Shown here: one piece after another, positions 1,046 through 7,573 of the stretch
Numbering within the stretch: position 1 is the first letter of the stretch
Layout: every line of letters begins with the position of its first letter
Assembly (NCBI GenBank): GCA_010093605.1
Contig: MU004186.1
Span: 2,212,616-2,276,615 of the forward strand
Length of the DNA: 64,000 bases
Source of the DNA: Lophium mytilinum
Taxonomy: Eukaryota > Ascomycota > Dothideomycetes > Mytilinidiales > Mytilinidiaceae
Reading direction: 5' to 3'
Made by a program: the position numbers and the translations under genes
The notes under the pieces: model-generated
What the model was told of the DNA's origin: nothing
What the model saw: only the letters and a program-made list of their open reading frames with translations
Databases searched by the model: none

Positions 1046-3517
1046 GGGTGAGAGGGGCTTGTGAGGGAGTCTGTGGTGTGTCTCTAAAACTGTTGCTGGT
1101 GCTGTAGGTAGGGGCGTCCCTAATTGAGGCGTGAAGGCATAGGGAGTGATTAGGGTATCAAAGAAATGAAGAAATAAACTTGCTAAATGGAGATAGGTGA
1201 TCCCTGACCCTGTGACGTTTCTGGGACAAATTAGGTTCCTTGGAGGCCACAGCGAATATGCCAGGACCAGCATCCTGCATTCTACAACCTGCATCCACAG
1301 CCGGCACCCGCAGTGACGGGAGCCTCCATCCCACCAGATGCGTATGCCGGGATCTGCATCTGTATCCATCCACAATCTGAAACGTGCACCTGCGGCTTGC
1401 ATCCACGACGGGCATCTCTCCCTGTAAGATCATAGGTCGAAAACACGTGGGAGTCACATGACGTGAGGATCCGGAAGGTATATAAACACCTTCCTGCTTT
1501 TCAACCATGGAGCAACGGGAGGGATGGGAAACAAAAAACAGTACTACCAAAGTTCGATAATGGTCCTTTGGGGTTCGTGCTGTCAAAATCATGAACGGAA
1601 GGAAACATTTGATGGTACTGGAGGGAAATCAACACTGCATCGAACCAATCGCGAATGGTGTCTACTGCAAAACTAGGCTCGCAGTGCCCAATGTGGGGGA
1701 GGGGTGGTTGCATTCTACTCCATGATTTCTATCTCTTTGGTCCGCTGCTGGATAACACCAACAGGAAACCTGGCCCGCTGTCGCCATCAATACCGTGTGT
1801 ACAGGGGCATCAGGGAGGAGGATGAAGAGCATCATTGGATGAATGCAATACACCACTTGAACCTCCCGCATTGCCGGCACGCCACATCAGGATATACTTC
1901 ATTCTCTTTTTGACCCAACAACCAGCCAAATCAGGCCACATGTAATGCGATCACCCTGTCGGTTTGATCCACCCCAATTTCCAAGCCATAAGAGAGGTTG
2001 TACGTCCATTTCATCCACCCCAAAGCCTCCCAAAGCTCATACCGTTTCGCCTTGTTGATTCCCCATCTCAGGTTGCCCGCCCTTGGAAGAAAGCATGCAG
2101 AGCTGCTGAGGAAGTTTTATACCGAGAGGGAAGTCGGGGTCACGTGGATTCGGCGTAGGTCACGAGACGGTTAGTCTTCTGGCGGTCGAGCATGGGGATC
2201 GTGCGCCCAGTCCTACACGTGCTTGGAGAATGAAGTGAGCAAGATGGGAAAGATCAGGTAGAGGTCACAACAGGTTCTTTCTCGTTCATCGAGACTGCTT
2301 CCCTCACGAGCACCTACTTCGCTAAACACATACCCTCATGAATAGCTAAGAGGAAATACCGTCACTGCTTTACTCCCACAAGAATTAAGAGATTTTCTGT
2401 TGTTGACCAACACGGTATAGACAGACAGTCCTCACATACTCTCCTAGGTGGTCCAAGAGAACGACCGCACTGCTGTTCACCACGTCCCATTAACGATACC
2501 TCTGCTCACCAAGAACAGCTATTTGCAAAAGCTTCACAGTAACCTCCTCTTACCAGGAGTGCTCACCACCGTCCCATCTCGCTGCTGTCAATCACCAAAA
2601 TCGCGCACTCCCACTCCCATTGCACTCTTCCGCTCGTTGTTTTCCCATCCCCCATACAAGCTTTGTTGCTTTCGGTTTTGCACTCCCAACGCACCAGCGA
2701 CATTAGTCTCAACCACTCGTTATGATCAAGCCATGTTTTTAGCGTACTGACGTTGTTGATGTCTCCAAACTCTCTACTCTGCTCAGCCGTCAAAGCCGAA
2801 GAGAAGTATTTGTACCCCGACCCCGCTGCGAGGTTGTGTCACGTTCCCAGTCACGAGTGTTGCTCCTAGGCACGAGACAGGTCTAAACAGAGCAATCTAC
2901 TTTTTGGTGGATTAGAAGACTGAGATGAGAACGGTGTGGTATAGTCCCTTCCTTTCCACCTTATTCCATAACGAGTTGAGTAGTATCTGTGTGCGTGGGT
3001 AGGTAGAGGAAATCCAAATCAGGGGTTTCTTGAAAATTCAAGATACCAAGCAAGCATTCAAAAAAGACTTAAGAGACAAACTAAACAAACCCGTTCGCGT
3101 AGAAAGAGAGAAAAATAGGGTATCACAGGCTCCAACGAGTTCGCAGGCCATAGCATTCATAGAAGACGAAGACCACGCGCATGAGTGCCAGGTTTACTAC
3201 TAGCCTCGCTTGCTATAGATAATTGTCACAGGCCAGTAAAAATTTCCTCTCCCCTCCAGAGAATTTGCTATATACTGTAAGATACGAAGATTCGCATACT
3301 TTACTAAGGTTGCGAACGCCCCCTGGGCAAGGACCCCCGTTGCTTGCCACTTACTAACGACTCAATAGTTCGAGGTGAGTGATACCTAGAGACCACTGAT
3401 CGCAGTTGACTGGTGGTGGCGAGGTGTTCGTGGAAATGTCTCGAAGAGGCCGCCAGGCGGCCACTGCAGCGGGAGAGGTGACGCGATTCACTTAGATTTA
3501 GGGGGCTCGAGGTGTAT
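1046..3517. other. Gene-poor interval between LeuRS and the transposon
   Basis: I see no convincing gene in this 2.5 kb. Open stretches on either strand are short, lack recognisable domains and have no coherent splice pattern. Around 1264-1440 there are several imperfect copies of a TGCATCC-like word. A TATATAAA element lies near 1480. The last 230 bp before the transposon end in a second TATATAAG box at 3515-3522. That stretch is best read as the original upstream region of the gene now starting at 6743. Confidence 0.5.
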
Positions 3518-3523
3518 ATAAGA

Positions 3524-3649
3524 AGGACGAGCTTAATTACCACCCCCCTATTCTCTCTATAGCCCCCCCCTTTTCTCTTTCTAGCCCCCCCCCTACTTTT
3601 AGCCTAGCTCCGGCCCGTATTAATATTATTCCACTAATTAAACTTACTT
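3524..3649 (+). repeat. Left terminal inverted repeat of the RIP-degraded transposon
   Basis: It matches the reverse complement of 6471-6596 over about 126 bp with only four differences. All are transitions, and in every case the left copy carries the A/T base. It contains three poly-C tracts of 6, 8 and 9 bases, all kept at equal length in the right copy. Confidence 0.9.
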
Positions 3650-4336
3650 ATTTAACTTTATAGAAGGCTGCGTAAAATAGTAAGTATATATTATAAAATA
3701 GAAAGGCTATAGTATACTAGCTATTAAAAGTCTATTTACTCTATCTATTAAAGCTAGTCTATAAGTAGAAGGCGCCTAGATAGCCGCCGTCTAATTACTA
3801 GCTAAAAGGAACGCTAACTAGGCCTATATACTATAGCCTTATACCTAAATATTCTCTAGTTTCTTTACTATAGGTAGCCTCTTTCTTAGGTATAGATATA
3901 GGGGCATTCTTAAAGCCTAGTTAGCTATTAGAAACTAAGAAAATTAAGCTCTAAGTAGCTACTAGAGTGCCTATTTATCTAATAGAGTAATTTAGTACTA
4001 TATTATTAAACTATAGAGGACTATTTAATACTATAATAGTTTACTTAACTACTAGTATACCTATAGAGATACCTATTATAGTAATTTAGCTAGCCTATAT
4101 TTTAATCTATATTAATTAAGTTAGTTTCTATCTATCTATATTACTTTATATTTTATATATACTATCTATATAAATAGTAGTCTTATATACTTACTATAGA
4201 TATAATATTTCTCTATATAATTCTAGCCCTCTACTATATTAGCGCGCGCGCTAAGCTATACTTACTAGATTCTATTAAGTATTATATTTAAATTAAGATA
4301 GATTATACTAAGTTATATTTATAGGCATATAAATAC

Positions 4337-4365
4337 AGCTATAGCTATAGCTATAGCTATAGCTA
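4337..4365. repeat. Short (AGCTAT)n microsatellite inside the transposon
   Basis: Nearly five head-to-tail copies of the hexamer AGCTAT. It probably arose inside the already A/T-enriched transposon body. No function is suggested. Confidence 0.7.
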
Positions 4366-5790
4366 CGCGTTATTTAATAAGGTCTAGCTAAGCCTATTAG
4401 ATATTCTTTTTAGCGCAGTATAATAGCTAGAGCCTTAATAAGAAGAAAAGAATCTATAGATAGATTTACCTTATTTAGAATAGAATATTTAAACTACTAG
4501 TACTAATAAATATTCTCTAGAATAATAGTATATATAGAGGTTACTATAGCATATAGTTTTTAGTATATTTTATAATAGTATAGTATACTATATATCCCCC
4601 TAAATATTCTATTATATACTAGATTAAAATTATTATCTTTTACCTTCTTAATCTAGCTAGTAAGTAGCCTTAGGCTCTACTTTATAACCTTCTAAATAAT
4701 CTTATTAAATTTAGGTAGCTTTACCCTATACTATAGAGCTCTATATTAGCAGCTAAGCTAGTTCTTTAGCTCTATACTCTAGTAGTAAATATATTAAAAG
4801 AGAAGGGTAACTATATTATAGAGGTTACCTATAGAAATCTAAAGATAGAACTTAATACTACTATTTAAGCCCTCTAGGCGTAAGGTTATAGTATTTCTAA
4901 AGTGCAGTAGAAGAGTAGTATAGTACTTAGTAATCTACTATTAAAAGGCTACTACTCTTTAGTAAGGTAATTAACTAGGCCTTATTTATTTATATAATCT
5001 TCTTCTATCTTCTTTTAAGTAGCTTTAAACGTAAGCCTTATAGGTTTTATAAGATAGAAATTAAACTTATTAATAAACTTTTTTCTATCTCTCTATATAG
5101 CTTCTATCTTAGCTACTATTAGATTTTAAGAGGCTCTACTACTAAGGTTAATTATATTTACTACTTTCTATTTATCTTTCTTCTAAATAGCTATAGCCTT
5201 ACTAGTAATATTCTTTTATATATACTATTTATATAGAATTTAAAAAATAGTAGAAAAAAACTTAGCTAGTATATTCTTAAGTATAAGTTCTTTATCTATA
5301 ATAAAAACGCCTAGTAAAACACCTAGGCGCTAGTATATAAGGTAAAGCTTGCGCACTATAAAGATATAGTTTTTCTCTTCTTTCTCTAGAAGAAAATAAT
5401 AGCTAAGCTTATAGTTCTTACTCTAATTATTAATACTATTAATATAGAGAAGTAGCATTTTAAAGTAATTAGTTTTATAGATGTAATTAAGAAGAATAAT
5501 ATCTAGATAGTATTAAAATATCTTAATACTCTAAGGATATATAAAGTATAGATACTTAACCTAGTTTACTTTATCTAGCTTATATTTATAGTAGTAATAA
5601 GCGTCTAGGTTATTACTACTATATTTTTTAAGTACTTTAAGTATAGCCTAAGTTAGAGTAAGCCTCTTAAGCTTCTTTTTCTTCTAGTTTTATCTCTTAT
5701 TATATAGGTTCTATATTATTACTTTCTTACTCTTAGTAAGTAGGTTATTAAAGATAGTACCTATAGGGGTGCCTCTATTAAGTTAATTAT

Positions 5791-5992
5791 TATCACGGAC
5801 TACGAGAGGCAAGGCACGGAGCACGGTGTTGAGCAAGGAACAGGGTGTATTTACGAAGACGAAGTCGCGTGGAGGTGGAGGTTCCACGCGGCGCAGGCTA
5901 AATACAGGCTGGAGGTGCGAAACCGCGCTAGCGCACGGGCTCACGTGACGTAGCCGAGGGCACGTGACATGTGCGGAGCTGGATCCGTCACA
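5791..5992. mobile_element. Solo LTR (202 bp) nested in the transposon
   Basis: A G+C-rich block sits abruptly inside the A+T-rich transposon. It starts TATCACGG (probably TGTCACGG with one G-to-A change) and ends CCGTCACA, giving the short inverted termini of an LTR. It is flanked by a perfect 5-bp duplication ATTAT at 5786-5790 and 5993-5997, the usual length for Ty3/Gypsy or Ty1/Copia integrase. There is no internal retrotransposon sequence, so this is a solo LTR left by LTR-LTR recombination. It has escaped the heavy RIP seen around it. Confidence 0.85.
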
Positions 5993-6470
5993 ATTATAAA
6001 TACTTTAAATTATTTTCTTATTTAGATCTTAATATATAGCTAGAGTACTATTCTCTAGGTTAAATAGGTTATAATTATAAGTAGAAACCTTAACTTTAAA
6101 GAACTAATTACCTAGCTATAGGTCTCTTATAAAGACGCCTTTTATAGGGTAATTATACTTCTTAGTATAAATTCTCTTCTTTCTATTAGCCGGCTTATAG
6201 ATACCTATATAATTATAATAAATAAGTACTTTACGCACCTAAGGGGGCGTACGCTTATCTATTTTATTTCTATGCTAGATAATTATATACCCTTTCTACT
6301 TAGCCTAAGTATTAATAGACTTTATACCCTCCTCTATAGAGGCGTGGCGGCCCTAGAAGGGCGGCCGTAAAAGTATAGTATTAAAGTAATAATATAAAGA
6401 AAGTAGTATTAATATATTAAGAGTAAGTGCGCGGCTATTATAAATTTAAATTAAGTATAAGAGGGTAAGC

Positions 6471-6596
6471 AAGTAAGTTTAATTAGTGGAACAATATTAA
6501 TACGGGCCGGAGCTAGGCTAAAAGTAGGGGGGGGGCTAGGAAGAGAAAAGGGGGGGGCTACGGAGAGAATAGGGGGGTGGTAATTAAGCTCGTCCT
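6471..6596 (-). repeat. Right terminal inverted repeat of the RIP-degraded transposon
   Basis: Inverted copy of 3524-3649. At the four differing positions it keeps C or G, so it is closer to the ancestral sequence. It ends directly at the second ATAAGA target copy. Confidence 0.9.
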
Positions 6597-6603
6597 ATAA
6601 GAA
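6596..6603 (+). promoter_or_regulatory. TATA-like box of the 276-aa gene, created from the target duplication
   Basis: TATAAGAA lies about 140 bp before the ATG at 6743 and is followed by pyrimidine-rich sequence typical of a fungal transcription start region. The same TATATAAG stands at 3515-3522 on the other side of the transposon. The insertion therefore duplicated the box and moved all upstream sequence 3 kb away. Promoter function is inferred. Confidence 0.4.
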
Positions 6604-6742
6604 AGGTTTTTTCCCTCTCTCTTCTTCATCATACAGCAACCACTCTTTCCACACCACCACATCTGACAGCATCCGCAACCCCTCAAACCCCTCGAACCCA
6701 AACCAACTTCTATTCACTCCAAAGCTACCCATTCTTAGCAAA

Positions 6743-7573
6743 ATGGCTACCAACACCAACTTCATCCTACCCGAGAGGACCCAAGCGTTCATCAACGCGC
6801 TCCCGGCAGCGGTCTTCAAGGCCGAGCTCCGATCTTCCCTCGAGTCTTCTGAGTCCAAGAACCTCGACCCGTCCTCTCCCATCTGGGAGAAACTCCACCC
6901 CCTCGTCAAGCAGGCCGTCCTGGATGACGCAAACAACCTCGCTGCCAGCGCAGCCCATATACTCCACGAAGCTGACCCGACTCTTGTCCTTGAGGCTCGC
7001 AAGGAGCCGAAGACATTCGCCCGCTTCCAGACTAAAACCTCTTTCGGAGGGTACGACAAGCACGGGAACCCCTCTGACTCCGCCTGGAAGGCGGTGAACG
7101 ACTTCATCTCGTTCTGCATCCCGACTCGTATCCCGGATATGGTCAGCAACGTGCAGCGTCTCGTGGCAGCGGTCGCTGCGAACGGCGGCAAGTGGTACGT
7201 CAAGCCCGACAAGAATGGCGGCCAGGTGTGCCTGGAAGACGGCAAGGACGGCAACCCGAAGGACCTGTGCTGCTTCGTGTACGCATACCTCCCGGCCATT
7301 GGGTATGTCGTCGAGGTGCAGGTGAACCATCCGTTCGCCTCCTTCACCTTTGAGCGGGACTCCCTGCTCCGCGATAGCCCGGAGCTCAAGGGGAAGCTGG
7401 TTGACATGTGGGACGAGGGGCTCTACGGAGCTGTTCGAGATACGCTGCTCTGTCCTGAGGAATCTTCGGAGGGGGACAAGGCCGCCGTGCGGGAGAAGGT
7501 GGCTAAGGCATATGCCACGAAGACGCAGGATGCTGCTCTCTTTGAGATCTTGGATGCGGAGAAGCTTATGTAG
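6743..7573 (+). CDS. Orphan 276-aa protein (remote RelA/SpoT-like hint)
   Basis: A single-exon frame starting MATNTNFILPERTQ, in good fungal context (CAAAATGG), ending TAG. Codon use is strongly biased to C/G at third positions, as in well-expressed fungal genes and unlike the surrounding A/T-rich DNA. I do not recognise the family firmly. The middle (residues about 90-225) holds NDFISFCIPTRIPD, then GYVVEVQVNHPF. This order faintly recalls the D..G.R and EVQ elements of RelA/SpoT nucleotidyltransferase domains, but that is a weak inference. It has no signal peptide or membrane segment. It lies 140 bp downstream of a transposon inserted in its promoter, so expression may be altered. Confidence 0.7.
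   Translation: MATNTNFILPERTQAFINALPAAVFKAELRSSLESSESKNLDPSSPIWEKLHPLVKQAVLDDANNLAASAAHILHEADPTLVLEARKEPKTFARFQTKTSFGGYDKHGNPSDSAWKAVNDFISFCIPTRIPDMVSNVQRLVAAVAANGGKWYVKPDKNGGQVCLEDGKDGNPKDLCCFVYAYLPAIGYVVEVQVNHPFASFTFERDSLLRDSPELKGKLVDMWDEGLYGAVRDTLLCPEESSEGDKAAVREKVAKAYATKTQDAALFEILDAEKLM

Follow-up and report, generated by a model that had tools for sequence, protein, structure and literature searches.

What does a gene keep, and what does it lose, when a transposon inserts just in front of its start codon, at what appears to be its TATA box? This question is raised by a locus near the beginning of the 64,000-bp stretch of DNA analysed here (the window), where a degraded element lies directly upstream of an open reading frame. 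We consider it likely that the insertion target of a Mutator-like element (MULE) was the TATA box in a TATA-containing fungal promoter, that the resulting 8-bp duplication left a box on the gene side, and that the sequence formerly upstream was displaced by about 3 kb.

A RIP-degraded Mutator-like element and its family

The element occupies window positions 3525-6595, is 3071 bp long including a nested solo LTR, and carries its transposase remnant on the minus strand. Its left terminal inverted repeat (TIR; 3525-3654, plus strand), which holds subterminal direct repeats, C-rich and about 22 bp long, pairs with the right one (6466-6595, minus strand). These arms of about 130 bp are 95% complementary, and the 6 of 130 positions at which they differ are all of the RIP type (C/T or G/A). 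With inverted repeats bounding the element, a duplicated target and family copies in the same genome, from which the boundaries were taken, the transposon insertion proposed in the earlier note is real.

The element is a Mutator-like element. The MULE transposase domain PF10551 was identified in a little-mutated copy on contig C2 (L005:1746-2090; E 8.8e-23, 81.1 bits against a cut-off of 27.6). In the focal copy, alignment to this relative places only a decayed remnant of the domain, at 5211-5501 on the minus strand, and the three minus-strand frames of 5183-5531 contain 7, 8 and 18 stops. The long TIRs are those of a MULE, as is the 8-bp target site duplication found in all 17 copies with both ends readable; MULE duplications measure 8-11 bp according to excerpts from a published account (PMC6446971). 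A duplication of 8 bp is also typical of hAT transposons, a class rejected here: the 4 frame pieces searched, from the 25 frames of at least 50 amino acids in the little-mutated copy, gave no match to the hAT dimerisation domain at E up to 0.1, and a MULE match was obtained instead.

Because searches of the genome (43.2 Mb, 24 contigs) scored only the best candidates, copy numbers are lower bounds. At least 17 family copies have both ends readable. Four are full length: the focal copy, which contains the nested insert, and those on contigs C19, C5 and C2, each exactly 2852 bp long; the others are 11 short derivatives of 427-688 bp, one copy of 1368 bp and an interrupted copy on C3 (C3:1976428-1987921; L009, L004 and L008), which is split by about 8.6 kb of other DNA. 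Five further ends were excluded from the 17: two on C13, 46 kb apart, and two on C15 and one on C17 that are partnerless in the stretch analysed. The ends on C13 (L086, C13:320440-320760; L087, C13:366040-366640) form two halves of one short MULE derivative, about 46 kb apart. Since their outer 8-mers are both TAGATTTT and their inner break points adjoin, about 45 kb has apparently been inserted into this derivative. A genome search concerning that insert gave no match to DUF3435, the Starship recombinase domain, and control genomes gave none either.

Between 3525 and 5792 the element has a clear RIP signature, with a TpA/ApT ratio of 1.82, a (CA+TG)/(AC+GT) ratio of 0.10 and 27% GC, compared with ratios of 0.73 and 1.18 in the window background (8001-64000) and of 0.66 and 1.11 in the gene to the right. 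The 500 bp to the left of the element (3017-3516) give intermediate values of 1.19 and 1.00, and the right flank (6604-6742) gives 0.67 and 1.31. A RIP pattern of this sort points to a filamentous ascomycete as the host. Little RIP mutation is seen in the C2 copy (C2:1522872-1525723; GC 0.49; ratios 1.21 and 1.13). Read without introns, its transposase frame is nevertheless interrupted, with pieces of 302, 115, 57 and 151 codons in one frame and stops between them, and no uninterrupted transposase frame was found among the four full-length copies. Relative to the C2 copy, those on C5 and C19 carry 459 and 639 RIP-direction changes, with 0 and 2 transversions, respectively. Between the focal copy and the C2 copy there are 613 RIP-direction changes, along with 39 reverse transitions and 139 transversions, over 2843 aligned sites, and the focal copy therefore belongs to a separate lineage.

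The nested insert, a GC-rich segment of 202 bp at 5791-5992 that appears to be a solo LTR, is absent from the three other full-length copies and is bracketed by the 5-bp duplication ATTAT (5786-5790 and 5993-5997). Its sequence occurs elsewhere in the genome as six pairs about 7.7-8.1 kb apart, which probably represent the two LTRs of full retrotransposon copies. The simplest order of events would be MULE insertion, RIP, arrival of an LTR retrotransposon and recombination between its LTRs, although the donor copy could already have carried the RIP mutations or the LTR. The insertion had also been called possibly recent. Nothing favours this, given the heavy RIP mutation of the copy and the solo LTR nested in it, although RIP may itself predate the insertion.

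Among fungal MULEs, Hop reportedly makes a target duplication of 9 bp, compared with 8 bp here. Hop is an active MULE of Fusarium oxysporum, named in three reports (PMC3441728, PMC6446971, PMC3599309), and resembles the focal family in being a fungal MULE with TIRs. VdMULE1-3 of Verticillium dahliae, as portrayed in excerpts from their description (PMC3441728), share with our family PF10551, a comparable length (3.4-3.6 kb), termini starting with GG and subterminal direct repeats, and an 8-bp AT-rich duplication, ATTGAAAA, is given there for one of them, similar to the 8-bp AT-rich duplications observed here. They differ in having TIRs of 53-86 bp, against about 130 bp here, and in termini of the form GGNAA, whereas ours are mostly GGACG, GGAGG or GGATA (PMC3441728). 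In addition, the same excerpts report no clear RIP bias for VdMULE, whereas copies here are RIP-mutated (PMC3441728). Short derivatives of 427-688 bp, which make up 11 of the 17 copies, are a further difference from VdMULE.

Target site duplication and probable TATA box

A perfect duplication of 8 bp (8/8) was found in all 17 family copies with both ends readable, and one of 9 bp in 0 of 17. Comparison of family ends shifts the element boundary by one base per side relative to the earlier note, which had read a 6-bp duplication, ATAAGA. That length is ruled out by the family boundaries, and the duplication is instead the 8-bp TATAAGAA. Its left copy lies at 3517-3524; its right copy, at 6596-6603 on the plus strand, forms the TATA box on the gene side, 147 bp upstream of the ATG.

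The family inserts into AT-rich DNA. The A+T content of the target site duplications in the 17 copies is 86%, compared with 59% in the adjoining 20-bp flanks, and a target contains on average 6.88 A/T bases out of 8, compared with 4.12 +- 0.34 expected from its own flanks, a value reached in 0 of 20000 simulations. Of the 17 target contexts, 5 contain TATAA in either direction, compared with 1.77 expected for the same A+T content (post hoc test, P 0.0225). A preference for AT-rich 8-mers, some of which are TATA-like, can thus explain an insertion at a TATA box without any targeting of promoters. We found no paper in a literature search for fungal promoter insertions that also required the TATA box, a result that does not exclude the existence of such a report, and the excerpts of PMC7175516 contain nothing on TATA targeting by MULEs.

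The TATA-box consensus is TATAWAWR. It occurs only twice, counting both strands, in 56.4 kb of the window (7601-64000), or about 0.002 times per 100 bp per strand. An exact match, TATATAAG, has been left stranded beyond the element, at 3515-3522 on the plus strand. Rejoined with a single duplication, the flanks read GTGTATATAAGAAAGG, so that they do form one TATA element ahead of the ATG at 6743, as had been noted before; the distance of 147 bp is counted from the first T of the gene-side box. Because the duplication spans the box, the gene side keeps TATAAGAA and now reads GTCC-TATAAGAA-AGG. The TA formerly 5' of it has been replaced by the CC of the element end, and the gene-side box is therefore no longer a full TATAWAWR match.

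The earlier note had pictured an insertion in the TATA box that split the promoter and left the original upstream region 3 kb away behind RIP-degraded DNA. The TATA-like target and the displacement of the upstream region stand, with 3071 bp of RIP-like element in between. The box, however, was not destroyed, since the 8-bp duplication restores TATAAGAA on the gene side.

Downstream of the retained box, a pyrimidine-rich start region is predicted at 6607-6660 (plus strand) by its geometry relative to promoters of Aspergillus nidulans. It contains CA dinucleotides with their A at 6628, 6631, 6635 and 6638, which is 32-42 bp past the start of the TATA sequence. In A. nidulans, according to parts of a published survey (PMC4046813), the majority of TATAA motifs are found 30-45 bp upstream of the start site; among tight starts, 49% are spanned by CA and the 5' UTR has a median length of 93 bp. 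The arrangement of box, pyrimidine-rich region, CA dinucleotides and ATG is that of a TATA-containing promoter, and this geometry predicts that the gene-side core promoter works. Basal transcription is probably still able to begin about 105-115 bp upstream of the ATG. The box at 6596-6603 may be dispensable for the promoter. Upstream of the ATG, the gene's frame continues without a stop through the 5' leader and into the end of the transposon (6584-6742); it spans 329 codons from stop to stop, and its first ATG is the one at 6743.

The gene, its paralog and the displaced upstream region

The coding sequence (6743-7573, plus strand) is an intact open frame of 276 codons, in agreement with the earlier note, which had further described it as an orphan. 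It is not one: the genome contains a paralog, at C2:2744216, with 52-53% identity. The gene had no match in Pfam, NCBIfam or PDB, each at E up to 1, and the paralog had none in NCBIfam, nor in Pfam at E up to 0.01. Over 250 aligned codons, the mismatches between the two at codon positions 1, 2 and 3 (0.36, 0.24 and 0.50) are as expected for a conserved protein, a pattern that does not date selection to the time after the insertion.

In the paralog a TATA box, TATAAAAT, precedes the ATG by 118 bp, compared with 147 bp for the focal box. Two 10-mers of the DNA now on the far side of the element are common to the paralog's upstream region: TACCTAGAGA (3383-3392, plus strand), located 134 bp before the TATA sequence here and 139 bp before that of the paralog, and GCCGCCAGGC (3449-3458, plus strand), located 68 and 75 bp before it, respectively. 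Among control segments, 244 of 5610 shared any 10-mer and 0 of 5610 shared two in register, a statistic that was chosen after the data had been seen. A Smith-Waterman comparison of the upstream regions was not significant (65 of 1122 control segments scored as high), and a banded 8-mer test was weak (left flank, P 0.0245; both flanks, P 0.097; 16 of 360 control segments as high). The matching place of the paralog's TATA box and the two common 10-mers make it probable that the two sides of the element were originally one promoter. These similarities are suggestive of a far flank that was once the gene's upstream region, within one ancestral promoter. The 204 bp to the left of the insertion (3317-3520) match only themselves in the genome, and thus no duplicated copy of the empty site was found.

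We propose the following course of events. A cut-and-paste MULE favouring AT-rich 8-bp targets would have inserted at the TATA box of a TATA-containing promoter and duplicated the 8 bp, TATAAGAA, that cover the box, so that TATAAGAA would remain on the gene side, with a pyrimidine tract after it and CA dinucleotides where a start site would be expected. All of the former upstream sequence would have been displaced by about 3 kb, behind DNA that is now RIP-mutated, and its control of the gene presumably lost. The element would have undergone RIP and been invaded by an LTR retrotransposon, later reduced by recombination to a solo LTR; the simplest view is that both changes followed the MULE insertion. 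Our confidence in this proposal is tempered very slightly by the C2 copy being little mutated and not unmutated, and by the post hoc choice of the statistic behind the upstream homology.

Alternative readings and significance

It is possible, though unlikely, that the TATA-like sequence was only an AT-rich target and never a working TATA box, the gene being transcribed from a TATA-less promoter within the attached 140 bp. The preference for AT-rich 8-mers is general in the family, and TATAA is found on one strand at 4 of the 16 other insertions, where no ORF of at least 250 amino acids starts within 400 bp; at one of these four, on C2, a 103-codon frame has its ATG 156 bp away. Moreover, TATA-less promoters look common: among 22 ORF starts, crudely taken as the first ATG in each long frame, TATA[A/T] is present 100-200 bp upstream of the focal one alone. 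Against this, a sequence as rare as TATAWAWR (2 per 56.4 kb) is found here on the right strand and suitably spaced ahead of a pyrimidine-rich tract, and the TATA box of the paralog is similarly placed.

Plant Mutator elements favour the 5' ends of genes. A MULE that recognises promoters as such, through open chromatin or TATA-bound factors, would make the hit on the TATA box a targeted one, which we regard as improbable. In its favour are the TATAA count in target contexts given above, with its post hoc P value, and the number of copies close to genes. Sixteen copies have flanks of about 1 kb or longer (that on C4, with about 77 bp on each side, was excluded). Three of these lie upstream of an ORF of at least 250 amino acids at a distance of no more than 400 bp: the focal copy at 147 bp, the C5 copy at 195 bp and C7b, between divergent ORFs, at 324 and 369 bp. 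The same is true of 7-8% of window positions, a background counted differently, since copies were prescreened by coding score and window positions were not. The frame scan ignored introns and covered 8 of the 17 copies, selected for a notable coding-score hit. At three of 16, the numbers are too small for a claim of gene-proximity enrichment. Of the five sites with TATAA, the focal one alone lies within 400 bp of the start of a long ORF, and the flanks of C9a, C6b and C21 contain just 28-32% GC. MULEs tend to insert in or near genes, as stated in parts of one account (PMC6446971), and the three gene-proximal copies are compatible with this tendency, too few as they are to establish it here.

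The C5 copy just mentioned (C5:2085361 onward; L031:1821-2900) is a full-length, RIP-mutated MULE upstream of a pirin gene (PF02678) and possibly a second promoter insertion. That the element end is now itself the promoter, with the gene rewired to the transposon, is very improbable. The end adjoins the box and provides the bases 5' of it, but the element's interior is RIP-degraded and probably silenced.

The mimp elements are Tc1/mariner-related and belong to another superfamily than the focal MULE. As described in excerpts from PMC3599309, these MITEs occur in promoters of Fusarium oxysporum effector genes and are thus likewise transposon sequence close upstream of fungal genes; they differ from the focal MULE in being tied to a whole gene class (PMC3599309).

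A wider generalisation is highly doubtful at present, namely that the family's target preference resembles a TATA box and that its insertions keep the gene-side box and remove upstream control only. With a duplication of 8 bp, equal in length to the box, insertions of this kind would leave a box on the gene side and, if the generalisation holds, would preserve basal expression while removing regulation.

In conclusion, our preferred reading of this locus is an ordinary but instructive MULE insertion, probably into a TATA-containing promoter: a known kind of event in a new case, illustrative and not surprising. Regulatory change commonly arises from transposons in promoters. Here the target duplication itself would decide what the gene keeps, its TATA box, and the paralog, with its uninterrupted promoter, provides a comparator within the same genome.
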